NCBI GenBank assembly: GCA_947475245.1
Contig: CANJLW010000024.1
Span: 1-64,000, forward strand
Direction: 5' to 3'
Origin: Acetobacteraceae bacterium
Lineage (GTDB): Bacteria > Pseudomonadota > Alphaproteobacteria > Acetobacterales > Acetobacteraceae
DNA length: 64,000 nt
This document shows, one piece after another, positions 4,124 to 33,642 of the stretch (the stretch's first letter is position 1; every line of letters starts with the position of its first letter). The notes under the pieces were generated by a model. It worked only from the letters and a program-made list of their open reading frames with translations. It had not been told where the DNA came from and searched no databases. A program made the position numbers and the translations under genes.

Positions 4124-4222
4124 GGCTGTGGGCCTGACTGTTGGTTCTCGGGATACCAACGGGATACCACGTCATGGCCCGACACGAAATGCCTCGGAAC
4201 GACACCTCCCTATAAAATCAGT

Positions 4223-5842
4223 CTATTGGCGGCTTCGGTCGTCCGCTGTCATCGCCCGCAAACAAACTTCTAAGCTGTGGGTCGGTGGTTCGAATCCACC
4301 AGGGCGCGCCAGCTTACTTTCACCACCCGGAAAACCGCCTATCACATTGAATGGTAGGGACAAATTTGCCGTTCTAAATCCCTTATTCCGCGCATATCGG
4401 AGTTGGTCCGCAAACGTCAGTTTCAGCACTGTTCGTTGATCCTCCAGACGCTTCGAATCCCATAGTTTCCAAGGACTTGCGATGAATTCGAGCGCCGTTC
4501 TAAGTGTTTCGTCGAAGCTGCGAGCCGGACGGCTCATGTTCGCCATCCGCTCCTTGATCAAAAGCTTCTCCTCCTCCAGCTTTCGCACCCGCTCCTCGTA
4601 GGCTTTCACCACGCTGGGCACGCTGGCGTCGAGAATCCGCTCCAGGAACTGCGCGACCTGGCGCTCCACCTTCACCAGCTGGGCCGACAACGCCTTCGAC
4701 TGGCTTTCAGCCTGCGTCAGGCGGCGGTTCCATAGGTCCTCGAACATCGCCCGCGCGACCTTGAACAGGCTGTCGGTCGGTTGCACCGACCGCAGCAGCT
4801 TCTCAAACTCGCCTTCGATCTGATCGCGCTTGATCGACTTGCCGTAGCTGTCGCAACCGCGCTTGGGGCAAAGGTAGTAGGGGTAGCGAGCGTTCGTCCC
4901 GGTCGACCAGCACGCCGTCAACGGTGTCCCGCAGCAGTCGCAGATGACAAACCCGCGTAGCGGAAAGTCGAGGTTGATGTTCTTACGCTTGGCTGCGCGA
5001 CCGATGCCGTTTCGGCGTTCTTGGATGCGCTGAAAGGTCTGAAAGCTGATCAGCGCCTCATGCTGGGCTGGCCGAAGCGACACGTCCCAATTTGGGGCTT
5101 CGATGTATCCCGCATACGCGCATTGGCCCAACATCAGCGTGACGCGGTGATTGGTCACACTTCCGCGAGGGTCCTTTGGGAACGCCGGATGCGCGCGGAG
5201 AAAGCGCATCACTTCGGCCTGCGTCTCAAAACGGCCGGAGGCATACCCTTCCAGCGCCTCTTGGATGACGGAAGCAGCGGGCTCATCGCGCTTCAACATC
5301 ATGCCGCGCCCGGTTACGCGCTCGAACTTGTATCCGGTCGGCGGCTGAAACACCCAATACCCATTCATGATGCGGGAGCGCATACGGTTTTTGGTCTGCT
5401 CGCCGTTCTTCTGGCGCTGGTGCTGTGACACGCTGGCAAGCAGGTTCTCGACCAGGATGGAATCCGGGTCCTCGCCGAATTCGATCGACGGTGATTCCAG
5501 CATTCCACCGGCATTGGCGATCATGCCGCGCAGCTCCAAATGCGCGTGCAGTCCGCGCGCGAGGCGCGAGACATCGTCGATGATGACGACCGTGCCGCTC
5601 GCGCGCCGCTTCTTGATGAAGGCCAGCATGGCCTTCATCCCCGGCCTGTCTGTCAGGCTCCCCGAAACATCGTCTTGGAAAACCGCCGTGACGGTGTAGC
5701 GCTTCATCCGCGCGAACTCGCGGCATCGCGTCTCCTGCGACTTCAGGCCATCGCCAGCGATCGTTTGCTTCACGTGCGATACGCGGCAGTAGATGACAGC
5801 CTGCTTGGAGCCATCCTCGTTGATACGGTTCTTCTCTCTCAT
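4223..5842 (-). CDS. Large serine recombinase
   Basis: The 539-residue protein has an N-terminal catalytic domain starting AVIYCRVSHVKQ, with the nucleophile Ser in CRVS, and the DDVSRLARG motif. A recombinase domain follows (about residues 165-290), then a zinc ribbon with CDCCGTPL and CPKRGCDSYG, and a coiled coil (about 380-450). This is the architecture of large serine integrases that move elements without accessory proteins. The ATG at 5842 overlaps the upstream stop codon (ATGA), so translation is probably coupled. Its final 30 or so residues (ARPGGFEPPTHS onward) are the antisense reading of the tRNA-Arg fragment, so the C-terminus was acquired from the attachment site. It likely mobilises the element to the right. 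Confidence 0.9.
   Translation of the reverse strand: MREKNRINEDGSKQAVIYCRVSHVKQTIAGDGLKSQETRCREFARMKRYTVTAVFQDDVSGSLTDRPGMKAMLAFIKKRRASGTVVIIDDVSRLARGLHAHLELRGMIANAGGMLESPSIEFGEDPDSILVENLLASVSQHQRQKNGEQTKNRMRSRIMNGYWVFQPPTGYKFERVTGRGMMLKRDEPAASVIQEALEGYASGRFETQAEVMRFLRAHPAFPKDPRGSVTNHRVTLMLGQCAYAGYIEAPNWDVSLRPAQHEALISFQTFQRIQERRNGIGRAAKRKNINLDFPLRGFVICDCCGTPLTACWSTGTNARYPYYLCPKRGCDSYGKSIKRDQIEGEFEKLLRSVQPTDSLFKVARAMFEDLWNRRLTQAESQSKALSAQLVKVERQVAQFLERILDASVPSVVKAYEERVRKLEEEKLLIKERMANMSRPARSFDETLRTALEFIASPWKLWDSKRLEDQRTVLKLTFADQLRYARNKGFRTANLSLPFNVIGGFPGGESKLARPGGFEPPTHSLEVCLRAMTADDRSRQ
4267..4311 (+). other. 3' fragment of tRNA-Arg(UCU): attachment-site scar
   Basis: The stretch reads as an anticodon loop CTTCTAA (anticodon TCT at 4269-4271), the 3' anticodon strand GCTGT, variable loop GGGTC, a T arm GGTGG-TTCGAAT-CCACC (4284-4300), the acceptor strand AGGGCGC, a discriminator G and an encoded CCA (4309-4311). 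The bases to the left cannot form the anticodon, D or acceptor 5' strands, so the gene is not complete. A clean break at the anticodon loop is what tyrosine-integrase crossover in a tRNA gene leaves behind. Confidence 0.8.
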
Positions 5843-6162
5843 GGTGATCTGGCGTTCGATGGCCCCTCCAATGTTGCTGTATCCGTCAATTCTACACCGT
5901 CTTGGGCGGGATCGGTTGCCTGTACGAAGCCCTCTATCACTTGCCCACAAATTTTCACGTCGAACCCGAGTTCGACGAAGGAGCGCATGATCGACCAAAG
6001 CGCCGAAAGCAGCTCCAGCTTCTGCGCCTCGGTGAGATCGATATCATCGAGATAGGGGCTATACCGCCCCGCATCCATCTCGAATGTACCGGGCAGCGGC
6101 GCCGATACGGTGTTCACCTCATCGATCGTCGCTGGCGTCACGCTTCTGTCTTCCGCTTGCAT
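5839..6162 (-). CDS. Small acidic protein translated together with the recombinase
   Basis: This 107-residue acidic protein has no recognised domain. A helical stretch (LTEAQKLELLSALWSIMRSF, then VELGFDVKICGQVIE) dominates the second half. A strong AAGGAGGT ribosome site lies just before its ATG at 6162, and its stop overlaps the recombinase start by four bases, so the pair form one transcript with coupled translation. The context suggests a recombination accessory or control factor, but nothing in the sequence proves a function. Confidence 0.7.
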   Translation of the reverse strand: MQAEDRSVTPATIDEVNTVSAPLPGTFEMDAGRYSPYLDDIDLTEAQKLELLSALWSIMRSFVELGFDVKICGQVIEGFVQATDPAQDGVELTDTATLEGPSNARSP

Positions 6163-7761: not shown

Positions 7762-8021
7762 CCACGCTCCGGCGCGGTCATAAATCTGACCCAGGCACAC
7801 CGACCATTCTTCGGCGAACCATTCACCACACCATATGGACCGGCATAGCTGCACCGCGTGTAGAAGCGGCTATCGAAATCCGTGCTGTAGCGGGTGGGGG
7901 CGCGATAATCGTACGTCCACAGCACGTGCGGCAAACCCACCACCAGGATGGAGAGATAGAGTGCCGCAACCACCGGCACCCAAACGAAATGGCTCAGCCG
8001 GAAAAATCGCACGCGCGTCAT
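7758..8021 (-). CDS. Small single-span membrane protein after the coupling protein
   Basis: The 87-residue protein has one clear membrane segment (VWVPVVAALYLSILVVGLPHV, about residues 13-33) and a cysteine-containing soluble tail with RCSYAGPYG and NGRCAWVRF, which could form a disulfide in the periplasm. Its ATG overlaps the stop of the TraG/VirD4-like gene by four bases (ATGA), showing tight coupling with the conjugation operon. No family name can be given. Confidence 0.7.
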   Translation of the reverse strand: MTRVRFFRLSHFVWVPVVAALYLSILVVGLPHVLWTYDYRAPTRYSTDFDSRFYTRCSYAGPYGVVNGSPKNGRCAWVRFMTAPERG

Positions 8022-9403
8022 GGCCCACTCCTCGCGCTCGTTGGCAAATGCACTTTCGGATTCGGCTTCAAGCGACCGCCTTCCAGCGGGTTGTCCGCCA
8101 GGTCAAAGCAGTAGGGCGCAATCTCGTTCTGCCGAATTTTCTTGGCGTGGATAAAGCCGACATCCGCAACGTGGATGATCTGCTCATCGCCTGGCAGGCT
8201 CATCAGCTCGTATGGGGTGAACAGGCGGTCACGCCCGATCGAGAGCGAACCCGAATACCCGGCGCGGTCTGAATTCACGCCGAGGCCGTGCGAGACATTC
8301 AAGGACTCGCCCATCGCCTTGCTCACCCGCTCGGCTTCTTCGAAGTTTGAGAATTTGAGCCACTGCTTCACCGCGCAGTTCTCTTCCAGAACGGCGGTCT
8401 CGCGCTCGCCGTACCGGCGGACGCTATCGAGGCGGGATTGCGTGATGTAGAGGCAGCGCAACCCAAAGGCGCGAAACGCCGTCACGCGGTTGACGGCTTC
8501 CCGAAGCGGGGCGTTGCAAAACTCATCGAGAATCCAGCACGCGCGGCCAACCGTGCCCGACATCTGCGCCTGCATCAGGGAGAGCACGTGCTGCGCAAAG
8601 TAGGGGCCAAGGCGGTCCGCATAGCGGATCGGATTGACGAAGCAGACCACGTAGTGCTCGCGCACCAACTGTTCGTGCGTGACGGTCGCCGTGCGCCCCG
8701 CTTCATCCAGCGGGGGATACGCGAAGATTTTCAGCGCCGAGATCGCGGCATGATGATGTTGGGCGTAGTGCTCGGGGTTGAATTTCTTGAGATCGAGTAG
8801 CCGCGTTGCCGCGTTCCGATGGGGCGAATCCGGGTCAGAAGCCTCGATCTCCAAAGCGCTCTTCCATGTCGTCGGATCAGACAGGAAGGCAGACAGGCCG
8901 CCGGGCGTTGCCAGGCGCGCATTGTGCCAAAGCAGGATATTGGTGCCAGCGGCCAAGAAATCGCGCGGGCTTTCCCGCCAGTAGAAGTTCTTCTGATCGT
9001 TGTCGGGTTCTTCAATCAGCGCGTAGTTGGCGCTATCGATGATGAAGGGCAAGTGACCCGCAGGCGACTGCGCCGCCGCCTGCGCAGCACTGAACGGATT
9101 TAGCGACACACGATGCGGGTAGTTGGCACCGAGCACGTGGAAATCATCCACGACCGCGAATTTTCGGCCGTGCTTGATGCACATATCGGCAATCTGCGCC
9201 GCGATCTCCCCGTTCTTCACGTCATTGATGAGCAGTGCTTGCTCTGTATCGATTAGCATCGATTGGATCGCCGGGACGGCGGCGCACGTTGTCTTGCCGC
9301 CGCCCATCGCCGCGTAGATGATGGCGGACGCATTGCCGTGCGGCTCATAGATCGGCTTGCCATCAAACGTCAGGCCGAGTAGGCGGCGGGATGGCTTAAC
9401 CAT
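8018..9403 (-). CDS. VirD4/TraG-like conjugative coupling ATPase
   Basis: This 461-residue ATPase has a Walker A motif AMGGGKTT (about residues 32-39) and a Walker B motif ACWILDEF (about 286-293), with FITQSRLDSV-like sensor sequence shortly after (LYITQSRLDS). It matches type IV coupling proteins, which bring the relaxase-DNA complex to the secretion channel at the inner membrane. It lacks the usual N-terminal pair of membrane spans; these may be supplied by the small membrane proteins encoded just upstream, with which its gene overlaps by eight bases. It is the core transfer gene of the element. No other channel ATPase is seen, which points to dependence on a helper system. Confidence 0.82.
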   Translation of the reverse strand: MVKPSRRLLGLTFDGKPIYEPHGNASAIIYAAMGGGKTTCAAVPAIQSMLIDTEQALLINDVKNGEIAAQIADMCIKHGRKFAVVDDFHVLGANYPHRVSLNPFSAAQAAAQSPAGHLPFIIDSANYALIEEPDNDQKNFYWRESPRDFLAAGTNILLWHNARLATPGGLSAFLSDPTTWKSALEIEASDPDSPHRNAATRLLDLKKFNPEHYAQHHHAAISALKIFAYPPLDEAGRTATVTHEQLVREHYVVCFVNPIRYADRLGPYFAQHVLSLMQAQMSGTVGRACWILDEFCNAPLREAVNRVTAFRAFGLRCLYITQSRLDSVRRYGERETAVLEENCAVKQWLKFSNFEEAERVSKAMGESLNVSHGLGVNSDRAGYSGSLSIGRDRLFTPYELMSLPGDEQIIHVADVGFIHAKKIRQNEIAPYCFDLADNPLEGGRLKPNPKVHLPTSARSGP

Positions 9404-9707
9404 CGAGCATCCCCGCCTGCTTCATCTGGTCGCGCGACGCGACCTGTGACGACTTTGGTTCCGGCCCCAGCGCCGCGAATTCGGCAATCGCGCGGTCATG
9501 CTCGTAGACGCGCACCATGGCGGCGATGGCGCCTTTCAGAGACAGTGCCGAAGCCATGGCGAACATCACGCTCATGATGCCCAGCCCCCACCACTGCGCC
9601 GTCTCGGGCCAGATCGCCCAGGCGACCACGCCCAAGATGACCGCGACGGTGAATTGCGTGTTGATCGAAACGGCTGTTGCGATGCGGCGGCTAAAGGGCT
9701 GCTTCAT
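9396..9707 (-). CDS. Small two-span membrane protein upstream of the coupling protein
   Basis: The 103-residue product has two hydrophobic segments (about residues 17-34 and 40-62) followed by a soluble helical tail. Its gene overlaps the coupling-protein gene downstream by eight bases and the upstream gene by four. Two N-terminal spans followed by a cytoplasmic part is the layout missing from the coupling protein, so it may be its separately encoded membrane anchor. That idea rests on arrangement alone. Confidence 0.65.
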   Translation of the reverse strand: MKQPFSRRIATAVSINTQFTVAVILGVVAWAIWPETAQWWGLGIMSVMFAMASALSLKGAIAAMVRVYEHDRAIAEFAALGPEPKSSQVASRDQMKQAGMLDG

Positions 9708-10081
9708 CGGCGTGCCTTCCGGGATGTCGCCACGGCATCCGAAATCTCGCGCCGGATTCCATGCAGCCGGGAAGCGCGGCCCCAGATGGCACCTACCAAC
9801 TCACTGCCGCGAAGATCGCGAGACAGCAACTTCAGCTGGCCGAGCTGCCAGCCAAGGAACAGGGAAGCCGCCCCACATGAAGCGACGGTCACAACTTCAT
9901 GCTGATACAGCAGATCGCCGAAGGCGATGGCGAAGCCGCTGAGCCCACAAGCGGCGGCCAGGGCAAAGGGCAGTAGCGGCCGTCTCACCGACACAACGGT
10001 GAGGGTTTCGAGCAGATAGGTGTCGCGATGCGTGTGGACGGCACCTTGTTCCTTGTCGATGCTGACCGATCCGAATATCAT
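9704..10081 (-). CDS. Small membrane protein of the transfer operon
   Basis: The 125-residue protein has an N-terminal soluble part and two hydrophobic segments (PLLPFALAAACGLSGFAIAF and EVVTVASCGAASLFLGW), then a basic tail rich in Arg. It overlaps the next gene by four bases, and its ATG is five bases after the preceding stop, so it is part of one operon running from about 11.9 kb to 7.8 kb. I do not recognise the family. Confidence 0.65.
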   Translation of the reverse strand: MIFGSVSIDKEQGAVHTHRDTYLLETLTVVSVRRPLLPFALAAACGLSGFAIAFGDLLYQHEVVTVASCGAASLFLGWQLGQLKLLSRDLRGSELVGAIWGRASRLHGIRREISDAVATSRKARR

Positions 10082-10085
10082 GGCC

Positions 10086-10613
10086 TCACTCCTTCATCGC
10101 GCAGGAAGAAGAGTTGAGTGCGACATCCAGCTCGGAGCCGAGAGCTTTGACCGGGCGTGGCGTGATCAGCCGGAATGACCCCGCGTAGATCGCGAAGGCC
10201 GAGCGCCGTTCTTCCAGCACAACATTGACCGCGCAGTCGCATCGGGTTGTCGCCGTGGACGCCGACCGCGCAATGCGCGACTGGTTAGCATCACCTTGCA
10301 TCCGGCCGAGATCGCCGAGCAGATTGCCGAACGGCAGGGCTCCGCCGTAACGGCGGCAGAAGGCTTCGCCTTGTGTGCCATAGATAGTGCCGAGAACGGC
10401 GGCGCAATCGATGTTGGGCATTTTGGTCGCGGATGGCCGATGCGCTTCAGCCTGATCGCGGATATGGCGCGGGCAGGATTCAGCCCACCCGGACTTGATG
10501 ATCGTGCGCTCGCCGACGATGGGGCCGGTGATGAACAGCGAGGCGCCCGCGTAGATGCCTGCTGCCAGAAGGGCACTCCCCGCCAGGGGAAAGCCGCTCA
10601 GTTGATCGAACAT
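10086..10613 (-). CDS. Membrane-anchored cysteine-containing protein of the transfer operon
   Basis: This 175-residue protein has one N-terminal hydrophobic segment (GSALLAAGIYAGASLFI) that would anchor it with the remainder outside the cytoplasm. The outer part holds seven cysteines (in ESCPRHI, NIDCAAV, AFCRRYG, RCDCAVN and SSCAMKE), consistent with disulfide bonds. It is followed after four bases by the next operon gene. It may be a periplasmic part of the transfer apparatus or a surface-acting protein. Family unknown to me. Confidence 0.65.
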   Translation of the reverse strand: MFDQLSGFPLAGSALLAAGIYAGASLFITGPIVGERTIIKSGWAESCPRHIRDQAEAHRPSATKMPNIDCAAVLGTIYGTQGEAFCRRYGGALPFGNLLGDLGRMQGDANQSRIARSASTATTRCDCAVNVVLEERRSAFAIYAGSFRLITPRPVKALGSELDVALNSSSCAMKE

Positions 10614-10659
10614 GGATCACCCCACACAATCATTGCCGTCATCGTAAATTTGTCGGAGC

Positions 10660-11910
10660 TTATCGCTGGGCCGGACCGTGAAAGCCGTTGGAGCGCGGGG
10701 TGATCTTGGGCGATGGCCGCTTGAAGGAATCGTCGGCCGCCGCATCGCCCGGCAGTTCGGGCCGGGCGAACAATTTGAGGACCGCTTCATCATCCTCGTG
10801 CAGCCGGGCGGGCTCACGCGGGGAAATCCGATCGCCCGCCCAGCGGAACGTGAGGAAGGTGTAAATCCACAGCACCAGCGGGAAAACCAACTCGACGACG
10901 CCGGTGATCGCGGCGATCGGCGCGAAGTGGCCGATATAGTTCAGCGTATCGCTGACACCTGCCTTGCTCGGGAAATCCGGCCCGCGCGCGGCTTTCGCCT
11001 CGGCCGACGCGATCACGGTCTTCAGGCTTGCCGCATGCCCCCGCAAGATGCCCGTGAGCTGACGGGATGCATCCGGGCGGCCCGGAATGTCAGCGCCGCC
11101 AGCGAGCTCGGTTGCATAGGCGGATGCCAGCGCCACAGGCATAGCCTCGTCCAGCTCACTCGTCGCCTGCTTGATCTGAGAGTCGATGCGGCGCAGGGCT
11201 GGCCACTTCTCATGCACATCAGTTTCGTTCGACTGTGCGATGGATTGATACTGCCCCAGCAGTCGGTCGATGCGCGCGCCGATCTCCGGACGCGCAGCAC
11301 CGCCATTGGCAATCTGGAGCGCGACGGACTCGGCACGACCGAGTTTCTCGTCGATCGTACGCGAAACCGGGCCACGACCACCGCCGCCGCTGCCCGAGAT
11401 GCACGACACCTGTATCTCGCAATCGCGCTTGCCGCGAAGGTCCACGGCGACGGCGTTCGCCGCCGGAAGAATGCGACCCGCCTGCGCCGCCGCTTTGGCG
11501 CGCTGATCGACGAACGCTTGAAGCTGCGCGCCGTGCGCCTCCAGCTTCAGTTCGGAAACGGGCTTGAACACGAAGCCGGAGAAGGTCGCGACGAACAGAC
11601 CGGCGCCGACAACTCCAATCGAGGCAAGCGACGCCACTGCCGCGCTGGTGTAGCCGATCGTGGCGAGGGGCGCGCCTCGCTCAACGGCCAGGCGGTTTAC
11701 ACCGTAGGCGACCAGCGCGCCTGCGCTGGCAAGCAGCGCCGCCTTGAAAGCGACGACGGGGCCGCTGCCATCGATGATGGCGGGAACGGCAAAGCCCAGC
11801 ATGCAGCCGGACGCGACGGACAGCCCCAGAACAATGGCCTGCGGCGCGGACTGTTTCCGGCGCGGCGGAAGTCTGATCGGGTCGGACGCATGGTCATGGT
11901 TTGTCGACAT
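10660..11910 (-). CDS. Large polytopic membrane protein, first gene of the transfer operon
   Basis: The 416-residue protein starts at an ATG with AGGAGGG eight bases upstream. It has about three hydrophobic segments near the N-terminus (about residues 22-125), a long soluble helical middle with a Ser-Gly-Gly loop next to two cysteines (DCEIQVSCISGSGGGG), another membrane segment near residues 335-360, and a charged C-terminal tail. It heads the operon that leads to the coupling protein, so a role in mating-bridge or inner-membrane complex formation is likely. It is not a recognisable VirB component. Confidence 0.65.
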   Translation of the reverse strand: MSTNHDHASDPIRLPPRRKQSAPQAIVLGLSVASGCMLGFAVPAIIDGSGPVVAFKAALLASAGALVAYGVNRLAVERGAPLATIGYTSAAVASLASIGVVGAGLFVATFSGFVFKPVSELKLEAHGAQLQAFVDQRAKAAAQAGRILPAANAVAVDLRGKRDCEIQVSCISGSGGGGRGPVSRTIDEKLGRAESVALQIANGGAARPEIGARIDRLLGQYQSIAQSNETDVHEKWPALRRIDSQIKQATSELDEAMPVALASAYATELAGGADIPGRPDASRQLTGILRGHAASLKTVIASAEAKAARGPDFPSKAGVSDTLNYIGHFAPIAAITGVVELVFPLVLWIYTFLTFRWAGDRISPREPARLHEDDEAVLKLFARPELPGDAAADDSFKRPSPKITPRSNGFHGPAQR

Positions 11911-12022
11911 GTGAAATGCCCTCCTGGCCATTCCACTACGCCGAGAAAATCGGTACGTGCCGGGGGGCGATCGGGTAATGCGGTACTGGCCCGATGTGAA
12001 CTGCCGGGCCAGGATGCGCAGC

Positions 12023-12811
12023 ATGACGATCGACTGGGACCAGACCACGAACGCCGAGCGCAAGTGTCTCAATGCCGCCACTAAGGCGCTGAGATCGCGC
12101 CTGAACATAGACTGGCAGACCGTGTTCCAGCGTGCCTTCGGCCTCGATGACCAGGTCGGTGATGGCTATCAGGACAATCTGCGCAAGGGCGCAATCGCGC
12201 CCGGCAAGGCCTACAAGCTCTACACTTGGTTGTACCACCATGACCGGGCTCTCGCCGACCAGGTCGAAAGTCAGATTTTCGCGCTGCGCGCGGCCACCGC
12301 GCCAGAGGCGCCGCCGCTATGGGAATCCCTCATCAAGCGCGGGCGGTTCGCGAACATCCGAACCATCAAGGCCCAAAGCAGCCTCGGAATCGTCGACTTC
12401 GCGCGGCGTGAACCGATCGATCCCACGGCGCTCAAGCTCTTCGACGAGTTCATTTTTGAGATAGACGCGCCGCTAACCGGAGAGGTCATGGCATTTCAGG
12501 GATATGGCGGCCAGTGGTATCCGCTGCCGCTCAGCACCGTTGCGCCGACCGTCAATGTGCAGAAGGGCAAGGCTCTCCTGCCGGTCGATGACGAGGGTCG
12601 GCCGGAGCCGCTGCGAGAAGAGGAGAGGCCGGGCCGCTACCGCTTCATGTTTGTGATCGTCCAAGGCGACCGACTTCCAGACCTGGAAACGTTGCAACCG
12701 CACCTGCCGATACCGACCCGCATCCGCGATGACATTGCCCGCGCCGTGATGTCGGCGCCCGCGAGCGATTGGGTAGTACTCCGCACGAACATCGTGTTCA
12801 AACAAAGCTGA
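12023..12811 (+). CDS. Unrecognised soluble protein divergent from the transfer operon
   Basis: The 262-residue frame encodes a soluble protein of mixed helix and strand with no motif I can name. The N-terminal part (TTNAERKCLNAATKALRSRL and DNLRKGAIAPGKAYKLYTWL) resembles a small helical DNA- or protein-binding domain; the second half is strand-rich. The ATG at 12023 has AGGA upstream; in-frame starts at 12014 and 11957 are alternatives. It converges on the metallopeptidase gene with 16 bases between stops. A regulator or defence component is possible. Confidence 0.55.
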   Translation: MTIDWDQTTNAERKCLNAATKALRSRLNIDWQTVFQRAFGLDDQVGDGYQDNLRKGAIAPGKAYKLYTWLYHHDRALADQVESQIFALRAATAPEAPPLWESLIKRGRFANIRTIKAQSSLGIVDFARREPIDPTALKLFDEFIFEIDAPLTGEVMAFQGYGGQWYPLPLSTVAPTVNVQKGKALLPVDDEGRPEPLREEERPGRYRFMFVIVQGDRLPDLETLQPHLPIPTRIRDDIARAVMSAPASDWVVLRTNIVFKQS

Positions 12812-13910: not shown

Positions 13911-14105
13911 GCAAGAGGGGAGGCATGACCCGTGATTATAGCCAATCCACCGCTCGGGCGATCCATAGCAGGGAGTGCAAGAGGGGAGGCATGACCCGTG
14001 ATTATAGCCAATCCACCGCTCGGGCGATCCATAGCAGGGAGTGCAGGGAGTGCAGGGAGTGCAGGGAGTGCAGGGAGTGCAGGGAGTGCAGGGAGTGCAG
14101 GGAGT
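13911..14105. repeat. 66-bp tandem duplication followed by eight 9-bp repeats
   Basis: The block starting GCAAGAGGGGAGGC at 13911 is repeated from 13977 with a 66-bp period (13911-13976, 13977-14042). The second copy leads into GCAGGGAGT repeated eight times without change (14034-14105); the first copy contains the same 9-mer once (13968-13976). Both periods are multiples of three, which is why the minus-strand frame stays open and reads as repeated Cys-Thr-Pro. There are no unique spacers, so this is not a CRISPR array. Slippage during replication is the likely origin. Confidence 0.9.
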
Positions 14106-14203
14106 GCAAGATGTGCGGTGTAGTACCGCAATCTTGGCAAGGGGGCCGCTGCGCGCCCCCGTTGCATCCCCCACGCGAACCGTGCGCCGGTTCATCGCGC
14201 TTC

Positions 14204-14435
14204 GGGATGGGCGTTCCTGCCCCTCCCCAAGACCCCACCCAGACCAACGGTATCGCCGTTGGATCACGACCAGGGGCGTGTGCCTGCCCCTTGGAACCCA
14301 GCACCATGGTTTCGCCCATGGAGACGACCAAAGGGCGTTCCTGCCCTCTGGACACCAGACCAACCGTGCGCCGATTGGATGGGCGCCAGCGTTTCGCCGC
14401 TGGACCACGACCGGGGAGATTTCGCTCTCCCCTGG
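14204..14435. repeat. Array of about eight short hairpins with variable stems and recurring loops
   Basis: Successive inverted repeats lie at 14204-14227, 14244-14262, 14270-14294, 14304-14321, 14328-14351, 14360-14378, 14386-14403 and 14411-14435. Most begin with CCA and end with TGGA, and several are joined by a CACGACC or GACGACC spacer. Stems differ (CCAACGG/CCGTTGG, CCATGG/CCATGG, CCAGCG/CGCTGG, GGGGAG/CTCCCC) yet pair within each unit. Loops fall into classes: TTTCGC in three, GTTCCT in two. Starts are spaced 24-40 bases apart. Stem changes on both arms with pairing kept suggest selection for folding as RNA or single-stranded DNA. The whole stretch 13911-14600 is otherwise gene-free. 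Confidence 0.75.
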
Positions 14436-14600
14436 ACCCCATGACCAGGGGCGCACCTTTCGGCCATCGATCCAATGCGCCACTTGAACGTCGTCCAGTA
14501 TTACCGCATAGTCTGAAAAAAATTACGGATTCTTATGATGTTACGATCCAATAAAACATCGCTGCCACTCCATTATAGAAAACCCGAGATCGGCGTTTCG

Positions 14601-17486
14601 ATGGACCGCTCTGAATACCATGCAAAATATTTCGCGTATGATCTTACGCGCAGAGCTTCATCAGGTATCGATCGTCTCTCGATGTCGCTCTTTGATGCGG
14701 CGGTGGATTTAAATCCTCATCAGATTGAGGCTGCTCTTTTTGCGCTTGAATCGCCGTTGTCGAAGGGCGTTCTTCTTGCAGATGAAGTCGGCCTTGGTAA
14801 GACCATCGAAGCCGGTATCGTGCTCTGCCAGCTATGGGCAGAGCGGAAGCGCCGCCTGCTCGTTATCTGCCCGGCGTCGCTGCGAAAGCAATGGGCGATC
14901 GAGATGGCGGAAAAGTTCAACCTTCCCAGCCAGGTCATCGACGCGAAAACCTATCGCGATGCCAAGCGCGCCGGCCGCTCGCCGCTCGACTCCAAATGCA
15001 TCACCATTCTGTCGTTCAACTATGCCGCCGCTTTGCGCGACGAGCTGAAAGCCATCAACTGGGACATCGTTGTCATCGACGAAGCCCACAAACTGCGAAA
15101 CGCCTACAGGCCGAGCAACAAGGTCGGCCAAGCCATCCGGTGGGCGACAGAGGATTGTCGCAAGCTGCTCCTCACCGCCACGCCGCTCCAGAATTCCCTG
15201 GTCGAACTGTACGGCCTTTCGACCCTGATCGACGAACATATCTTCGGTGACGTGAACGCATTCCGTGCCCGCTATGCGAGCGCTGGCAGCAGTATCGTCG
15301 ATCTTCGCCAACGCCTCGCCACCTTCTGCAAGCGCACCCTGCGCAATCAGGTGACCGAGTATGTCCGCTATACCGAGCGACGCGCGATCACGCGCCCGTT
15401 CACACCAAGCGACAGCGAGCACTCGCTTTATGAGGCCGTATCGGGATTTCTTCAGCGCCCAAACAGCTACGCATTACCACAACGGCAGCGGCACCTAACG
15501 GCGCTGATCCTCCGCAAGCTGTTGGCATCCTCATCGCTCGCCATTGCCGGCACGCTCGACACGCTGCGCGCGCGGTTGGAAACGCTGCGGGATGAACAGG
15601 TGAAAGACGATCCTGTTTTTGCAGAGCGGTTGATCGAGTCCGAGGAAATCGAGGACGAGTTGCTTGACGAAATCCTGGCCGATGAAATCGAGGGCGACGC
15701 CGAAACCGCAACCGCGCCGGTCGATCGGATGAAGCTGAAGGAGGAAATCGAAATCCTCCAAAGCCTCGCGACACGCGCGAGAGCAATTCCCGTTGATACA
15801 AAATCCGAAACCCTGCTGAAGGCGCTCGACATCGGCTTCGCGCAGATGGCCGAAACCGGCGCGGCGCGAAAAGCGTTGATCTTCACGGAATCGCGGCGCA
15901 CGCAGGACTATCTCAAGGGCTTCCTTGAGACGAACGGCTATGCCGGCCAGGTCGTTCTGTTCAATGGCACCAACAGCGGGCCGGAAGCTACCGCCATCTA
16001 TGAGCGTTGGCTTGCTGAGAACCGCACCACAGGACGATCATCCGGCTCGCGCGCGATCGATGTCCGCACGGCACTGGTGGAAGACTTCAAGGACAACGGA
16101 ACCATCTTCATTGCTACCGAGGCCGCATCAGAAGGCGTCAATCTGCAATTCTGTTCGATGGTCGTGAACTATGATCTACCGTGGAACCCTCAGCGCATCG
16201 AACAGCGTATCGGGCGCTGCCATCGCTACGGCCAGAAGCATGATGTCGTCGTCATCAACTTCCTCAATGAGCGCAACGAAGCCGACCGGCGCGTACTCGA
16301 ATTGCTTGGCGAAAAATTCAGCCTCTTCAACGGCGTGTTTGGCGCTTCCGATGATGTGCTCGGCAGCATCGAGTCCGGCGTCGATTTCGAAAAACGCATC
16401 CTCGCCATCTACCAGGAATGCCGTTCGTCGGAAGAGATCGAAGCGGCCTTCGCCAAACTGCAAGCCGAGATGGACGAGAACATTCGCGCGCGCATGGACG
16501 ACACGCGCCGCACGCTGTTCGAACGTTTCGATGAAGACGTGCACCAACGGCTGCGCATCAAACTGGCCGATGCCAAGGCGCAGCTCGACCGCGTTGGACA
16601 TCGCTTTTGGTCGCTGACGCGCTTCATCCTGTCAGCGCGCGCTGCTTTTGACGATGACGCACTCGCCTTTGATCTAACCGACCCGCCGGCGACTGATATC
16701 GCTTCCGGCCGCTATCATCTGATTTCGAAATCGCAGCCAGAGGCCGGCACCGATCGCAGCGAAGACCAGGGCAGCTTCCTCTATCGCTTGTCGCATCCGC
16801 TTGGAGAGAATGTCATCCATGCCGGCAAGACGGTGGCGACGCCGCCGGCGACGCTCACCTTCGACATCAGCGCTCACGCATCACGCATCCATGCCGTCGA
16901 AGCGTTGCGCGGCAAATCCGGCTATCTCACACTTCAGCGTTTGCAGATCGATTCCTATGAACGCGAGGAACATCTGCTGTTCTCCGGCTTCGATGATGAC
17001 GGCGCATCGCTTGACCAGGAGACGATGGAGAAATTGTTCGGTTGCGATGCCGGGATAGATGACCTGCCAATGGTGCCGGACACCATCGCGGCACGGTTGG
17101 AGGCCGAAAGCCTCCGCCACGCCAAGGCGACCATCAGCCTGTCGCTTGAGCAGAACAGCGCGCACTTCAACCAGGCGCGCGAAAAGCTGGAAAAGTGGGC
17201 CGACGATATGGTGCTTGCGGCCGAGAAGGCGCTCACTGATACCAAGGAGCAAATCAAGGTGCTGCGTCGCCAGGCCCGGCAGGCGCTGACCCTTGAGGAG
17301 CAGCACGACATTCAGGAGAAGCTGCAAAAGCTGGAGCGCCAGCAGCGCCGCCAGCGCCAGGAGATTTTTGACGTCGAAGACAAGATCATGGAGAAGCGTG
17401 ATACGCTCATCGAGCAGCTTGAGCGGCGCCTATCCCAGAAGACCGAAACTGAGACCCTGTTCACTATCCGGTGGCAGGTCGTCTAA
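14601..17486 (+). CDS. SNF2-family helicase/translocase, first gene of the restriction-like operon
   Basis: The 961-residue protein has helicase motif I DEVGLGKT (about residues 61-68), motif II DEAH (160-163) and, in the second lobe, NYDLPWNPQRIEQRIGRCHRYGQ-type motif VI sequence near residue 530. The last 130 residues form a long coiled coil. This is the SNF2/RapA-type layout, a DNA translocase rather than a strand-separating helicase. The ATG at 14601 begins the recognisable sequence; 14535 and 14538 are earlier in-frame choices. It is followed after 29 bases by the methyltransferase gene and then the nuclease gene. SNF2 proteins occur in phage-defence loci such as DISARM (DrmD), but the other DISARM parts are absent here. 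Confidence 0.88.
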   Translation: MDRSEYHAKYFAYDLTRRASSGIDRLSMSLFDAAVDLNPHQIEAALFALESPLSKGVLLADEVGLGKTIEAGIVLCQLWAERKRRLLVICPASLRKQWAIEMAEKFNLPSQVIDAKTYRDAKRAGRSPLDSKCITILSFNYAAALRDELKAINWDIVVIDEAHKLRNAYRPSNKVGQAIRWATEDCRKLLLTATPLQNSLVELYGLSTLIDEHIFGDVNAFRARYASAGSSIVDLRQRLATFCKRTLRNQVTEYVRYTERRAITRPFTPSDSEHSLYEAVSGFLQRPNSYALPQRQRHLTALILRKLLASSSLAIAGTLDTLRARLETLRDEQVKDDPVFAERLIESEEIEDELLDEILADEIEGDAETATAPVDRMKLKEEIEILQSLATRARAIPVDTKSETLLKALDIGFAQMAETGAARKALIFTESRRTQDYLKGFLETNGYAGQVVLFNGTNSGPEATAIYERWLAENRTTGRSSGSRAIDVRTALVEDFKDNGTIFIATEAASEGVNLQFCSMVVNYDLPWNPQRIEQRIGRCHRYGQKHDVVVINFLNERNEADRRVLELLGEKFSLFNGVFGASDDVLGSIESGVDFEKRILAIYQECRSSEEIEAAFAKLQAEMDENIRARMDDTRRTLFERFDEDVHQRLRIKLADAKAQLDRVGHRFWSLTRFILSARAAFDDDALAFDLTDPPATDIASGRYHLISKSQPEAGTDRSEDQGSFLYRLSHPLGENVIHAGKTVATPPATLTFDISAHASRIHAVEALRGKSGYLTLQRLQIDSYEREEHLLFSGFDDDGASLDQETMEKLFGCDAGIDDLPMVPDTIAARLEAESLRHAKATISLSLEQNSAHFNQAREKLEKWADDMVLAAEKALTDTKEQIKVLRRQARQALTLEEQHDIQEKLQKLERQQRRQRQEIFDVEDKIMEKRDTLIEQLERRLSQKTETETLFTIRWQVV

Positions 17487-17515
17487 ACCGAACCAGAGAG
17501 AAACCGAGCGACCGC

Positions 17516-20745
<3,230 letters not shown>

Positions 20746-20746
<1 letters not shown>

Positions 20747-23700
20747 TGCCGCGCGGGCGTCCTCGGAAAGTCGCGGCGGCTGGTGCAGCTGCGCCGGTAG
20801 CGCCGCGCGCCCGACGCGGCCAGCCGCAGGTCCCGTTTGTGTTCAAGTTGGCATTGAACCAGTGGCTGTTGTCATTGTTCAACGTCAGCAAGTTCGAGCA
20901 GCTCGCCGAGCATCTGCGTAACGAAAAACTGGAAGGCATGGACGAGAACAACGTTCATCATTTTCACCATGCGCTGACCGCGCAGCTGTTCAACCTGACC
21001 CAGTTGCCGACCGAGCTGTTGCTGGAGTATGACCAGAATATCGTTCGCCATACCCAGCGCCTAAACGAACGCCGGATCACGCGCGGCGAAGCGCCGATCG
21101 TGTGGAAATATTTCCAGTATCTGACCCTGCTGTTCACTGAAATCTATCTAGACCGCTATTTCCGCGACCCCAAGACGCTGCTCGCCGATATCAACGCCCA
21201 GGTGGCAGAGATGAATGCTGACCGACCCGAGGGCGATCATGTCGCGGCGTTCGACGACAGCGCCGAGGCATGGTCTCAGATCAACAAGCTGGCCTACTGG
21301 AGCGCCACCGGCAGCGGCAAGACGCTGCTGATGCACGCCAACATCCTGCAATATCAATTCTATCTCGACAAGCATGGCCGCCGCCGCGAGTTGAACCGCA
21401 TCATCCTGCTCACCCCCAACGAAGGGTTGAGCCAGCAGCATTTGCGTGAATTCGAAGAGGCCGGCCTTCCTGCCGAGCTGTTTCAGAAGGACGGCGGCGG
21501 ATTGTTTTCTGGTCGGCGGATCGAAATCCTCGACATCCACAAATTGAAGGATGAGATGGGCGACAAGACCATCGCCATCGACGCCTTCGAAGGCAACAAT
21601 CTCGTGTTGGTCGATGAAGGTCATCGCGGCGCATCCGGCGGTGAGGAGGGCGCGTGGATGCGCTTCCGCAACGCCCTGTGTGAGAGAGGTTTTTCGTTCG
21701 AATATTCCGCGACCTTCGGCCAGGCGGTGAAGGGCAACAAGGCGCTTACCGACCTGTACGCCAAAAGCGTGCTGTTCGATTATTCCTACCGCTATTTCTA
21801 TGGCGACGGCTTCGGCAAGGACTATCAGATCCTCAATCTCGACGAGGCTACGCAGACCAGCCATCTCGATACCTATCTCATCGCCTGCCTGCTCGCCTTC
21901 TTTCAGCAGCAACGCCTGTTCAAGGAACAAGGCACAGCATTCCGTATTTTCAACATCGTGAAGCCGCTTTGGATTTTCGTTGGCGGCAGCGTGACGAAGA
22001 CGCTCGCGACGCGCGACGCATCGGACATCATCGAGATTTTGAAATTCTTCAGCCGCTATCTCGCCAACCGTTCAAACAGCATCAAGCAGATCGAGCAGGT
22101 GCTCAACCAGGGCCTGCTGACGGCCGGCGGCAAGAACCTGTTTGCTGGTCGCTTTGCCTATCTCAATACCATCGGCCTCTCCCCGATGCAGATTTTCGAC
22201 GAAACCTTGGCGGTCATGTTCAATGCTCCCGGCGGCGGTGTTCTGCACGTGGAGAACATCAAGGGCGCGACCGGTGAGATTGCGCTGAGCGTTGGCGACA
22301 ATGTGCCGTTCGGCGTCATCAATGTGGGGGACGACGCTAAGCTGGTGAAGCTGTGCGAAGACAATGGCCTGTCCACAGGTGACAGCGAATTCGCGGGCTC
22401 GCTGTTCCACGGGATCAACACGCCAACATCGCCGGTCAATCTGTTGATCGGCTCGAAGAAGTTCACCGAAGGCTGGAACAGCTGGCGAGTCAGCACCATG
22501 GGCCTCATGAATGTAGGCCAGACCGAAGGCTCGCAGATTATCCAGCTCTTTGGGCGTGGCGTTCGGCTGAAGGGCTATAACGCCAGCTTGAAGCGCAGTA
22601 GCAAGGTGCAGCTTCCCGATGAAGTGCAACGGCCAAACCACATCGGCGTGCTGGAGACGCTTTCGATCTTCGGCATCCGCGCGGACTATATGGCGCAGTT
22701 CCGAGACTTCCTTGAAGAGGAGGGATTGCCGACGAATGATGACCGCGAGGAGTTCATGCTCCCGATTATCAAGAACCTCGGTAAGCAGAAGCTGAAGACC
22801 ATTCGCTTGAAGAAGACGATTAACGGCGTCAGCACGGAGTTTGGTGACGCCTTCCGTCGGCTCGGGCCAATCCCAACCTTGGCGAAGCCTGATCCGGCCG
22901 CTGATGCGGCGACGGCCTATCTCCAGAATAACCAGGTTGTCCTGAATTGGTACCCGAAAATCCAGGCGATGAAATCACGCGGTGTTGCCGGTGGCGATGT
23001 CGAGGCCGCGCCGAACCAGGAGCATCTGTCCGCCCAGAATGTCGCCTTCCTTGACCGCGACCAGCTCTATTTTGAGCTGGAGCGATTCAAGGCCGAACGC
23101 GGCTGGTACAATTTCAACATCAGCGCTGATGGCATCGCAGCGCTGCTCGCCGATCCGACCTGGTATCAGCTGCTGATCCCCGCCGAGGAGCTGATTTGCG
23201 ACTCCTTCGAAAAAGTCCGCCTGTGGCAAGACATCGCGCTCGCGCTGCTGAAGAAATACACAGAGCGCTATTACACGTTCCGGAAACGCGAATGGGAGTT
23301 GCCGCATCTTGAGTATCAGGAGATGAGCGAAGACGACCCCAACTTCCCGAAGGGTGGCGACGAGGATGGCGATGGCTATTACCGTATCCTACTCGACAAA
23401 TCCCAGACCGAGATCATCACCAAGCTGACTGAGCTAAAGGCCATCATCGAATCCGGTACGCTCAAGCCTTGGGAATTCAGCGGCATGAAAGCCATCTGGT
23501 TCGGCAAGCATCTCTATGAGCCGCTGCTTTACCTTGACCAAAACATCGTCGAGGTTAGCCCGGTGCCTTTGAACAAGGGCGAGCGCAACCTTGTCGAGGA
23601 CATCAAGGCGTATCACGACAGCGCCGGCGCATTCTTCGCCGACAAGCAGCTCTACCTGCTACGCAATCTCAGCAAAGGTCGTGGCGTCGGCTTCTTCGAG

Positions 23701-24042
23701 GCCGGGAATTTCCATCCCGACTTCATCCTCTGGCTGATCGTCGGCGACCGCCAGTTCATCACGTTCGTCGATCCAAAAGGCATTCGCAACATCGGCTTCA
23801 GCGACCCTAAGATTCAGTTCTATCAGACAATCAAGGACATCGAGGCGCGCTTGGGCGATCCTGCGGTCACGCTCAGCAGCTTCATCATTTCGAACACGCC
23901 TTCGCACGTCATGCGAATGCTCTGGAGTGTCGAGAAGGCCGACATGGGTACGCGGAACATCCTGTTCCAGGACGAGGACAAATCCGACTACGTCGAGACG
24001 ATGATGAACCGTGTGGTGGCTACCCACCAAAGCTGTTCCTGA
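20746..24042 (+). CDS. Type III Res-like helicase with a C-terminal PD-(D/E)XK nuclease
   Basis: The 1098-residue protein has helicase motif [11 protein letters not shown] (about residue 185), motif II LVDEGH (about 290) and motif [14 protein letters not shown] (about 605). Near the C-terminus, [10 protein letters not shown] followed by ITFVDPKG fits a PD-(D/E)XK nuclease with Asp-x-Lys. This is the layout of type III restriction Res subunits, which cut after ATP-driven movement when sites are unmethylated. The short basic N-terminal tail ([10 protein letters not shown]) resembles an AT-hook. Its ATG overlaps the methyltransferase stop, so production of the two is coupled. Together with the SNF2 protein the three genes make a restriction-modification-like unit. 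Confidence 0.87.
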
Positions 24043-24104: not shown

Positions 24105-27100
24105 TTATCGTAGCTCAATCATCTGAGCTAATTCGAGATATCGGCAAAAAGCGTTTGCTAGCTGCATTTGTCTTGGCGTCTTGCACTCAGCCTCAAAGAT
24201 AGAAGGGGAGGCGATTAGGATTGCAAGACACTTGGCGCGAGAGATCGCGACATTGAACCGATTGGAGCTGTAGAGAAACTCCATGCCGCGCGGCGCATCG
24301 GCGTGGCTGGACGTTGCCATCGAATAAATGGCAATTGGCGCCTCCTGGCCCTGGAATTTATCTACGGTGCCCACGCGAGCACCAGGCGGGAGACGCTCCT
24401 GAATCTCAAACACTTGAGCATTGTATGGGGTGATGATCACGATATCCTCGATCGTGATCGGTCTTTCGGTCCCATCACGGTCGATCCAGCGGGGATTCGA
24501 GTTCAGGATCGACATAACGGTTTGTAGCACAGCCCCAGCTTCTTCGACAGAATAGCTCTTGTTCCCGGAATGCTCTACTGGGATGTAGCGGAGCCCGGAC
24601 CCGTTAATCGATCCATCGGACAAGATAACCTGCTGCCTGCATCCTTCTTTGGGATGGAGTTTGTTCTCGTAGAAAAGTTCTGAATCAAAAGCACAAATTG
24701 CCGGGTGCATACGCCAGGTCTCAGCGAGGAATAGCCCCCGGTCAGACTCGATCGTCTGCCTTCCACTCAAGACGTGCTCCAATGACGACACGCCCGTTCC
24801 ATCTGGATGGGTGCCTTGCATAGGTTGATCAAGCTGCTGCGGATCACCGAGCAGGATCAGCCGCTTGGCCGCGTGTGACACGGCTAGCACATTTGCCAGT
24901 GACATCTGGGCAGCTTCGTCGACCACGAGGACATCCAGAAGGTCTTGGGCATCATCTCTCGCCCAAAAGAAACTCGTGGCACCTGCCACCTGAGTTTGCC
25001 CGGCGGTCAAAGCCGTAATCATGGCCTTGTTGTCTATGGCAAATGTCAGACGGTGCTGATCATCTTCTTTGTCGGCAGCCTTCTGGATGCATTGAACATA
25101 AACGCCCATTTCATCGGCGGCTTCGATAACCTTGTCGAGGAGATTACGGATCACTTTGTGGCTGTTGGCCGTTATCCCGACCTTGAGGCCTTGCTGTACG
25201 AATATGCAGATCATGCGTGCGCCGGTATGGGACTTTCCAGTGCCGGGTGGGCCTTGTATCGGAAGAACGCCACCTTCGAGGCTCCTCGCGATGCGGATGG
25301 CAGCATCGAGTGTGCTCTCTCCATCCTTCTGGATGACCTGATCACCCATGCGAGGTGGGATGCGAAGGAGAAGATCGCGTGCGGCGAGGTAGGGGTCGTT
25401 CCCGGTGATGCCTGAACCGGCGACATACTCGCCTATGCGCAATAGGCAATCTGCCTGCTCCTTCGATGGCACGATGTCATGGACAAAGACGGCGGCGGGA
25501 TGAACCGCCGCCGTTTTGCCAGTTTTCTTGATGTCGATCGTGCGATGCTCGTTTGAGATCGCAGCAACGCTGCCGAGCTTTTCTCCGCCAACAGCGTGCA
25601 GGGCCTTGTCCGCGCGTATGTCGGTGTCCTGTTGTGGGAACACGTACCGATGTGTGGGAAGCTTTCCCGTCGTCGGGGCATCGGCGGTATATCTTAGGCC
25701 CGACAACGCGGCGCGCTCATCGACAAGCTCATCGGCGCTCAGCGCGCTCAGGCGGAAGTATTCCCACCAAACCGCTTTATCCTCGCGGCGATGCCAGTCA
25801 AGGATATTGGCGAGTATCCATTGAGCCTGTTGCTCTTCCGATCGCTCAGCCGGATCAACCGGTATGCCCGCCGTGAGCCGTTCGACAAGGCGGTTTACAC
25901 GCTCTTGCCGTTCCGAAATCTCCTCGCTTGGCGCTTCCTGGCCTGGTGCCGGTCGCGGCACGTCCGTCCCACCGGCGATAAGCTGCGCACGCAGGACTTC
26001 GAGCCAGTTGCGAAGCGCCTCTGTCGAGACGCAGTCATCCTGGTTATAGCCTTGGACTGTTTCCTTGTTGGCGGCAGATACAGACTCAACATCGCCGAGT
26101 TCAAGGCCTGCCTGAAGTCCCGCCAGAGCGATGTTCGCTTCATTGAGAGGGACCAGGCGCTCGTATCCGTAGAATGCCTCAAGCTTCTTGATCGAATAGC
26201 TCTCAACGCTGGCGCGGAGCGCATTACGGACCACGCTGTAGAGATCGACGAACACGAGGCCGCGCAAGAGGTTGTCGATTTCATTCTCGCGCGAGGCGTA
26301 CCGTCCCATCAGGCGCTTGAGCGCAGCCGGTTCATATGGCGCGAAATGGTAGATATGAAGGTCGGGATAGGTTGCCTTCCGCTCGGTGGCAAAATCGACG
26401 AAGCGCTCGAACGCTGTCTTTTCGTCTGCGCGGTTGAATGCCCACTCCGCCCGATAGACGGCATTTCCGTCGCTATCCCGATAATGATAGCCGAACAGAT
26501 ATTCGAGCCCGTGCTCTCCGACGAAGGGATCCCCCTCAAGGTCAAAGAATATATCTCCGGGACTTGGCTCCGGGAGGATACAAAGACCGAAGCCCGGTTC
26601 GATCGTAAGAAGCTCATGGCGAAGCTCGCCCGCTTCGCGCGCCTCCGCCTGGATGTGCGCTTGCTTTTTTATCTTCTCAAACGACTGCGCCGCGCCGCGC
26701 TTGGGTTTCCAAGAGATTGGTGTTGAGAGTGCGGCTAGGTCAGCTAGCGTTTGGACGCCGTTCTCACGGAGTTCGGTGATCTGATTGCGGGAAATACCTG
26801 CCACATACGAGAGGTGATCGTCGTGCCGCCGCCTCTTGTCGCAGTTTTCAGACCAGCGGCAGATATCGCAATGCTCGGTGGGCTCGGGATAAGTTTCGAC
26901 AGTGAGGCCGCCGCACGTGGCGTTCTCAATAGCGAGTTTCGCCCGACGGAAGAAGGCGGAGTAATCGTTGATCCGGTACGACTGCGGGGCGAAGTCAGAC
27001 CAAGGAACAACGACATGAGCATATTCGGGATCGTACTGCTGCATTTCCCGCAGCATCTCCGAATAGAGGCATAGCTGTAGAACGGTGCCACCCTTGGTTT

Positions 27101-27515: not shown

Positions 27516-27677
27516 TGGGTCCAATCGTATCAACGAATCTGGCGGCAAGCCATCACAGAATGGCATCGGCCAGATCGGCGAAAGCTAGGCGCGGTCTAGC
27601 TGGGAGACAAATGCAGCACCATAAGCCAGCCATTCACGGTTGAGTTTCCACTGGGATATGCGTGATCCGACGAGTTC

Positions 27678-28004
27678 TTAGGGGCGCATTTCCATCGACA
27701 CGGCAGCGGGGCGCCGTGGGTGGATTTTCACGGTCACTTCGACCTCCTGGCCGAGATGGGCAAGGATCGTCATCAGACGGTCGATGGTGAAGCGGTCCAG
27801 CTTGGCTTTGCGGATGCGGGAGAAATCAGCCGCCGCGACGCCAGTCGCTTCGTGCGCTGCACGCACGGTCAGCTTCTTCTCATCGAGCACGCTAATGATG
27901 CGTGCCGCGAGCAGGGAGCGCAGTTGCTCTTTGTCCGCGTCGGGGTGGCCCAGATCGCGAAAGACGTTGCCGCTCCCGCGAATGATTTCAGTGTCTTTGC
28001 TCAT
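27678..28004 (-). CDS. XRE-family antitoxin
   Basis: The 108-residue protein has a helix-turn-helix domain (KLTVRAAHEATGVAAADFSRIRKAKLDRFTIDRLMTIL, about residues 43-80) of the type found as antitoxin next to phage Gp49-like/RelE toxins. It would bind and neutralise the toxin and repress the shared promoter. Its ATG overlaps the toxin stop by four bases, so the toxin is encoded first, the HigBA-type order. The C-terminal tail is Pro- and Arg-rich. Confidence 0.85.
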   Translation of the reverse strand: MSKDTEIIRGSGNVFRDLGHPDADKEQLRSLLAARIISVLDEKKLTVRAAHEATGVAAADFSRIRKAKLDRFTIDRLMTILAHLGQEVEVTVKIHPRRPAAVSMEMRP

Positions 28005-28345: not shown

Positions 28346-28381
28346 CTGCTCTATGTTGTCAAATATGACTACATTTGTCAA
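28346..28381 (-). promoter_or_regulatory. Toxin-antitoxin promoter and operator
   Basis: On the minus strand a consensus -35 TTGACA (28381-28376) is followed 17 bases later by the weak -10-like CAACAT. Between them is an inverted repeat CAAAT-8-ATTTG (28360-28377) and a second copy of TTGACA. An antitoxin bound there would cover the promoter, as usual for these operons. Confidence 0.5.
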
Positions 28382-31200: not shown

Positions 31201-31203
31201 GAA

Positions 31204-33634: not shown

Positions 33635-33642
33635 AATTCCCA

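Follow-up and report, generated by a model that had tools for sequence, protein, structure and literature searches.

What could a row of small hairpins, whose stems differ in sequence from one to the next, be for? The row in question lies in a 64,000-nt stretch of DNA (the window), where an initial annotation had described an array of inverted repeats at 14204-14435, with the loop TTTCGC occurring three times and GTTCCT twice. The array is real, and the sequence within these limits, recurring loops included, is as described: seven strict hairpins cover 138 of its 232 bases, compared with 1.9 hairpins on average and 5 at most in 1000 dinucleotide shuffles, the kind of control proposed with the annotation, in which local pairing was never as strong (0 of 1000 reached 7 hairpins or 138 bases; the strict hairpin finder was written only once the array had been seen). 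At the same time the array is wider than first drawn, with about ten small units at 14177-14465 whose starts lie 24-40 nt apart:

14177-14193, minus strand: hairpin u1 (GAACCG/CGGTTC), from the fold and the strict finder
14204-14227, minus strand: hairpin u2, loop GTTCCT on plus, imperfect stem, from the fold and outside the strict list
14244-14262, minus strand: hairpin u3, fold and strict finder
14270-14294, minus strand: hairpin u4, fold and strict finder
14304-14321, minus strand: hairpin u5, fold and strict finder
14328-14351, minus strand: hairpin u6, fold and strict finder; an A.C mismatch on plus is G.U on minus
14360-14378, minus strand: hairpin u7, fold and strict finder; a C.A mismatch on plus is G.U on minus
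14386-14403, minus strand: hairpin u8, fold and strict finder
14411-14435, minus strand: hairpin u9, fold and strict finder
14448-14465, no strand assigned: weak final unit (-2.6 and -3.0 kcal/mol), probably decayed

The energy of u7 is -2.8 kcal/mol on the plus strand versus -8.4 kcal/mol on the minus strand. Read on the minus strand, many of the loops are GCGNNN or AGGAAC, with few loop types overall, and the linkers between units are, judged by eye, recurrent. Folded as RNA, 14195-14475 gives z = -2.1 on plus (8 of 200 shuffles equally good) and z = -2.7 on minus (3 of 200), and the whole-strand folding energy is only moderately unusual; the signal of the array is numerous small local hairpins, not a single large fold.

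Directly upstream of the array, at 14106-14165, there is a conserved head of two larger hairpins, which the original list of units had omitted:

14106-14138, minus strand: head hairpin 1, inverted repeat of a predicted oriT (fold, covariation)
14137-14165, minus strand: head hairpin 2, with 97% of cells paired and 5 of 11 pairs altered on both sides

The inner 6-bp stem of hairpin 1 is freely variable (5 of its 6 pairs are altered on both sides among 54 heads), while its loop is usually TACTA or similar. In the alignment of these 54 heads (A6, which includes those of genomes G000, G136 and G137), 94.9% of the cells in the drawn structure are paired and 12 of its 23 pairs are altered on both sides, and neither value was reached by any of 500 shuffles; the structure was drawn by the author from that same alignment, which favours it for cells paired. 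The covariation score of the head is 0.250, as against 0.088 for shuffled and 0.024-0.074 for slid versions.

A blastn search with the array region returned similar stretches in three alphaproteobacterial plasmids, in two of which the shared part begins upstream of the array, in the two-hairpin head. An exact pattern for part of the head matched 4 of 385 genomes of the class, with no match for the reversed control, and it also matched at least 117 stretches in a collection of 84,980 species genomes as well as 2 viral contigs. Once eight duplicate loci are removed, the head is present at no fewer than 120 distinct loci, the window included, and nearly all of them have an array; by record label, the loci from the genome collection are mostly Alphaproteobacteria, together with four gammaproteobacterial ones, one Nitrosomonas and one Oceanobacillus. 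The 114 loci with enough sequence for a hairpin count have a mean of 6.7 hairpins in the 400 nt past the head (2.9 when shuffled), and a few of them do not surpass their own shuffles. Units defined by loop and stem number 204 in the arrays on the plus strand and 0 in the reversed orientation, with 16 on both strands together in 853 kb outside the arrays. Among heads found by a covariance model, 18 of the 26 loci long enough show an array by eye and 8 show little or none (a 27th locus was too short; the 26 include four that also belong to the first set). About a third of the model-found heads thus have little or no array, and the array is therefore not essential; heads without arrays, taken with the varying array lengths, suggest that it is a helper.

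The compensating changes that the annotation had cited were comparisons between neighbouring units of a single array. Such changes are borne out across loci at a shared unit, which was picked by loop and position alone, with no requirement for pairing, and which is present in 70 of the 120 loci as 49 distinct sequences. Its five stem pairs hold in 47-49 of the 49, and its variable positions are altered on both sides; the third pair, for instance, is CG in 19 sequences, AT in 14, TA in 12, GC in 2 and mismatched in 2. Covariation across loci therefore supports selection for folding in both the array and the head, as had been proposed from the window alone.

Several identities for the array were rejected. 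It is not a dispersed repeat, being confined to a single locus in its genome, where the window copy alone matches well and the next best match has an E of 0.056. ORFs do cross the array, but at most of the 78 loci where the shared unit was found, that unit starts 45, 46, 47, 48, 49, 50 or 51 nt after the head, and therefore no reading frame is kept. A tRNA or other known RNA was rejected for want of a match: Rfam gave 0 matches at gathering score for the window and three relatives, and the best hit in 14000-14600, the only one there, scored 17.8 against a cut-off of 50 bits. A CsrA-type array was likewise set aside, since the AGGA of the minus-strand loop AGGAAC is absent, by eye, from the other loop types. 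We found no description of an array of this kind in the open-access literature searched.

Mismatches within the array stems are distributed unevenly between the strands. Counted on the plus strand, A.C mismatches outnumber G.T by 209 to 50 (829 to 581 in shuffles), or by 119 to 31 when each of 480 distinct hairpins is counted once, and since A.C on plus is G.U or G.T on minus, this bias favours the minus strand as the one that folds. The corresponding counts are 29 to 12 in the covariance-model set (270 to 196 in shuffles) and 8 to 5 in four plasmid arrays; the wobble bias, plain in the large set, is weak in the covariance-model set and not visible in the plasmid arrays. Folding of 60 loci did not separate the strands, whether with RNA parameters (mean z of -3.03 on plus and -3.02 on minus) or with DNA parameters (-2.77 and -2.61), and strand assignment by folding energy was dropped for lack of a difference.

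Two genes elsewhere in the window bear on what the head may be:

31826-33100, minus strand: relaxase of the MobA/VirD2 nuclease family (PF03432; relatives typed MOBP)
33097-33531, minus strand: MobC-like relaxosome protein, aligned with four MobC proteins at 19-36% identity

The relaxase, which lies 17.7 kb from the head, is the sole PF03432 match in its genome (E up to 0.001). On plasmids the two can be much closer: of the nine plasmids that match the head, four, from Methylomagnum, Desulfosarcina, Nitrosospira and Frigidibacter, have mobC and a relaxase gene just downstream of it, with the head 0.04-0.55 kb upstream. In the Frigidibacter plasmid pcai42B the order is coupling-protein genes, head, array, mobC and relaxase; the array (11 hairpins vs 3.4 shuffled) and a small annotated CDS lie between head and mobC, and the relaxase is 38% identical to that of the window over 280 aa. 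Beside the heads of the other five plasmids (two from Acidibrevibacterium, one each from Sinorhizobium, Devosia and Tritonibacter) no relaxase was seen, where inspection covered one of the two Acidibrevibacterium records and the Tritonibacter record is without annotation; in the latter a relaxase match of 158 aa does occur at a distance of 14 kb, on the strand opposite to the head, an arrangement like that of the window. The annotation likewise shows no relaxase around the R. etli array; part of an array in R. etli 8C-3 (L010, 6144-6599) is annotated as a 'hypothetical protein' that is probably not a genuine gene.

A search that started from the relaxase led back to the head. Nine of 14 matching plasmid records were inspected (those left out are Peteryoungia, a second Sinorhizobium, a second Bradyrhizobium and two Xanthomonas), and among five further relatives, selected by their relaxase and not by DNA, a diverged head lies upstream of the relaxase in four: pTF4.1, pSREG01, a pSymB island and a Bradyrhizobium plasmid. 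The last three have arrays (9, 11 and 7 hairpins, with 2.4-3.9 in shuffles), pTF4.1 has a single extra hairpin in place of an array, and the inspected gap upstream of the Sphingobium baderi relaxase holds no head.

Across the 385 genomes, the head model R1 has hits in 21 and the relaxase in 27, with both in 18 where 1.5 would be expected (Fisher p = 1.6e-21, with the window's own genome included and kinship not corrected). Nine genomes have the relaxase with no head hit and three the head with no relaxase, in a survey whose filters lose weak matches. All seven adjacent pairs (0.4-0.9 kb apart) have the relaxase on the plus side of the head. There are ten further same-contig pairs, the window among them and with the nearer head counted in G227; in nine of these the relaxase is on the cargo side at a distance of 4-19 kb and oppositely oriented. 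G148 is the exception, with the relaxase on the other side, and G380 fits the cargo-side layout if its contig is circular. Genome G237 carries on contig 6 two opposed heads (L156 and L169) about 1.5 kb apart, neither with an array.

Two properties of a MOBP oriT are therefore found here, namely adjacency to mobC and relaxase genes in relatives and an inverted repeat kept through compensatory change, and we read the head at 14106-14165 as the oriT of an integrative mobilisable element, a reading made from sequence. A candidate nic can also be placed:

14110-14111, minus strand: predicted nic, ACAT|CTTGC, from the motif 3' of hairpin 1

Of 32 heads that were not picked by the DNA pattern, 31 have the motif NNNNCTT(G/A) on the minus strand, 3' of hairpin 1. 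A nic at GCATCC on the plus strand was rejected, that motif being present in 13 of the 32; 23 of these heads were found by a model built from heads having both motifs, which biases both counts alike. In 6 of the 31 heads the nic motif reads ATGGCTTG, which resembles what we take to be the ColE1 nic, CTGG|CTTA, a sequence for which the literature looked up gave no confirmation. Relaxase nic sites lie 3' of a hairpin that re-forms on the incoming strand for re-circularisation, in the part of PMC4814116 that deals with them, and relaxase genes are typically in the region that enters last, according to an extract of PMC11541004. The position of the relaxase and the motif 3' of hairpin 1 together thus point to the minus strand as the one transferred, with a nic near 14110/14111, in which case the array would lie within the final few hundred nucleotides that enter. 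Repeats fill 13911-14108 up to the start of the head, which is the leading side relative to the predicted nic: a pair of identical 66-bp units and 8.3 copies of the 9-mer GCAGGGAGT.

We read the region of about 4.2-33.6 kb as an integrative mobilisable element, in which the order is serine recombinase, coupling protein, four unknown genes, head and array, SNF2-Mod-Res, helicase-nuclease, ArdC, Thoeris, relaxase and MobC. Its genes other than the last two are as follows:

4226-5998, minus strand: large serine recombinase (Pfam Resolvase 1.4e-22, Zn_ribbon_recom 3.2e-8)
8021-9403, minus strand: VirD4/TraG-like coupling protein (Pfam T4SS-DNA_transf 3.1e-18)
9399-12108, minus strand: four genes lying between the coupling protein and the head (103, 125, 175 and 482 aa), none matching a Pfam family below E 0.05
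14535-24042, plus strand: cargo of DrmD-like SNF2 helicase, type III Mod and type III Res (Pfam; PADLOC DrmD 3.7e-199, MTase_III 1.3e-257, REase_III 2.1e-226)
24105-27566, minus strand: RNase H-like and AAA_11/AAA_12 helicase protein (best PADLOC match MkoA 1.3e-42)
28632-29666, plus strand: ArdC-type anti-restriction protein (Pfam ArdcN 1.2e-41, MPTase-PolyVal 4.7e-54)
29767-31890, minus strand: Thoeris, ThsA (SIR2-STALD) at 29767-31200 and ThsB (TIR) at 31204-31890 (Pfam, PADLOC)

The Thoeris pair directly adjoins the relaxase. Between the helicase protein and ArdC, two small minus-strand ORFs at 27678-28381 may, by eye, be a toxin-antitoxin pair, and a minus-strand ORF at 2801-4159, adjoining the serine recombinase and with no PADLOC match, resembles a tyrosine integrase by eye. 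ArdC is encoded on the plus strand, and the minus strand, if transferred, would therefore be its template; ArdC-type genes in the window are too few for a strand test. Among the ORFs scanned, which are a part of those in the window, no mating-pore gene was recognised. The right border is probably near 33642: of 11 relative loci, nine cease to be similar in DNA at 33642-33650 and two at 33682-33691, positions that coincide with the stop of the flanking gene, so that ordinary divergence could give the same. The ends at 3.3-6.3 kb and 33.0-34.2 kb share no word longer than 12 bp, and a search for an empty site found the flanking gene in relatives and no joined flanks. Long tandem repeats lie at 921-1329, within a Sel1-repeat gene, and at 63496-63893.

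The surroundings of the head at other loci show a similar division between its two sides. A homologue of the window's serine recombinase is present at 27 of the 119 other loci, upstream and on minus in 26 of the 27, and homologues of its coupling protein at 3 of the 119. When the largest ORF within 4 kb upstream was scanned (94 of 95, the window left out), 15 of the 94 proteins matched T4SS-DNA_transf and 15 matched Resolvase. The 102 downstream proteins scanned, out of 105 largest ORFs with the window, L041 and L107 left out, gave 19 matches to N6_Mtase, 17 to ResIII, 10 to MmeI_Mtase, 9 to Eco57I, 8 to HsdM_N and 6 to DNA_methylase, where one protein may match several families; none of these is among the best 25 of 53 upstream families. 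An SNF2 homologue lies downstream at 6 of the 119 other loci, and many of the others have a different restriction system there, which speaks against the earlier suggestion that the array is a repeat family in use by the SNF2/Mod/Res operon and shows that it does not always sit beside these genes. At four loci (L016, L021, L023 and L024) a small gene with a similar start, by eye, lies between the array and the restriction genes; it looks like a ribbon-helix-helix regulator.

Considering the head, its relaxase and the position of the array together, we estimate a probability of about 0.55 that the array is a folded single strand linked to oriT, on the trailing side of transfer, and presumably of DNA rather than RNA. 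Of the three readings offered at the outset, a protein-binding single-stranded DNA array comes closest to this conclusion. Hairpin 1 would then be the inverted repeat of the relaxase, with the nic immediately 3' on the minus strand; this strand would leave toward the coupling-protein and recombinase genes, so that the array and the two head hairpins would form the final few hundred nucleotides of the transferred strand, and the ten or so units would fold one after another while this stretch is single-stranded. The likeliest task of the folded tail at the trailing end would be to hold back the strand end, or anchor it in the channel or the recipient, though even granting a folded strand on the trailing side we would give such a braking or anchoring task well under even odds. 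The tail may also keep the regenerated nic hairpin exposed, allowing the relaxase to rejoin the ends. Selection would act on folding, loops and linkers rather than on the letters of the stems, and non-identical repeats would recombine less, which together could explain why the stems of the units differ in sequence.

A different task on the same strand, which we consider unlikely, is that of a start site for the second strand, at which primase or RNA polymerase would be drawn to the hairpins once they are in the recipient, as at single-strand initiation sites or at Frpo, a single-stranded promoter and priming site according to a title cited in PMC11541004. Several hairpins beside an oriT in one orientation would suit redundant priming, but in the orientation proposed here the array would enter at the end, whereas the extract of PMC11541004 places its promoters in the leading region, and the loop types vary along one array. 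A structured non-coding RNA or leader transcribed across the array, also among the first suggestions, seems to us quite unlikely. The changes of G.U type favour one strand, as those in an RNA would, and the array precedes a mobC or relaxase gene in four plasmids, but the strand favoured by wobble is opposite to a mobC leader, and the flanking ORFs point either way (the first downstream ORFs of at least 200 aa are 68 on plus and 38 on minus, the nearest upstream 49 on minus and 48 on plus). Moreover, the far ends have no common sequence, by eye, among the loci listed, save for the small gene in four of them, and the array is without an Rfam match at gathering score.

It is improbable, though compatible with the other readings, that the array serves as a point of cargo exchange, with recombination at shared linkers swapping defence cassettes. 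Array DNA is shared by 430 pairs of loci and cargo DNA by 23, under cut-offs that differ (180 nt at 78% for the array, 400 nt at 75% for the cargo), and for L013 and L018 an identity of 91% extends from about 1.5 kb upstream until 182 nt inside the array, past which nothing matches. These counts indicate a cargo that is replaced while the neighbouring array stays more stable, but ordinary turnover beside a conserved oriT gives the same pattern, no dedicated recombinase could be linked to the array, which in plasmids is followed by mobC, and we do not claim that the array drives the turnover. Double-stranded binding sites, whether for MobC or for an accessory factor, and cruciforms aiding the opening of oriT are hardly probable: MobC genes adjoin some heads and the units are like head hairpin 2 in loop type (by eye), but the stems vary freely with pairing kept, and a reader of duplex DNA needs no pairing.

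Returning to the folded tail on the trailing side of oriT, we would propose, tentatively, that a modular and self-diversifying hairpin tail is a regular, undescribed oriT part of one relaxase family in Proteobacteria. Such a tail would fold on the strand being transferred, govern how conjugative transfer ends and be carried by mobile defence islands. To our knowledge, the ending and re-circularisation of the transferred strand are far less understood than the start of transfer, and natural variants ranging from none to about a dozen units would offer a direct handle on the strand-ending step. As far as we know, oriTs are mostly without annotation; the head, often beside restriction genes, is a practical genome marker that one exact pattern or one covariance model can find.

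The closest likeness to the head among known systems is in the MOBP plasmid oriTs of Paracoccus pMARC2 and pAES4, where a G-rich inverted repeat lies upstream of mobC, as here, and where the pMARC2 repeat and its flank resemble head hairpin 2 by eye; these oriTs were predicted and not mapped, and the text seen of PMC3832669 mentions no hairpin array. Like an iMOB (terms from the portion of PMC11389934 consulted), the window element has a recombinase, a predicted oriT and a relaxase of its own, the first and last of these being marks of an iMOB. In contrast to an iMOB, it adds a VirD4-like coupling protein, the hairpin array and two defence systems. Frpo leading-region promoters are likewise folded transferred DNA near oriT, whereas the array is on what would be the trailing side, has many units and is flanked by ORFs in both orientations. 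Intergenic palindromes of the REP/BIME type are short palindromes in series, as is the array, but the array occupies a single locus in its genome and is tied to one relaxase family.
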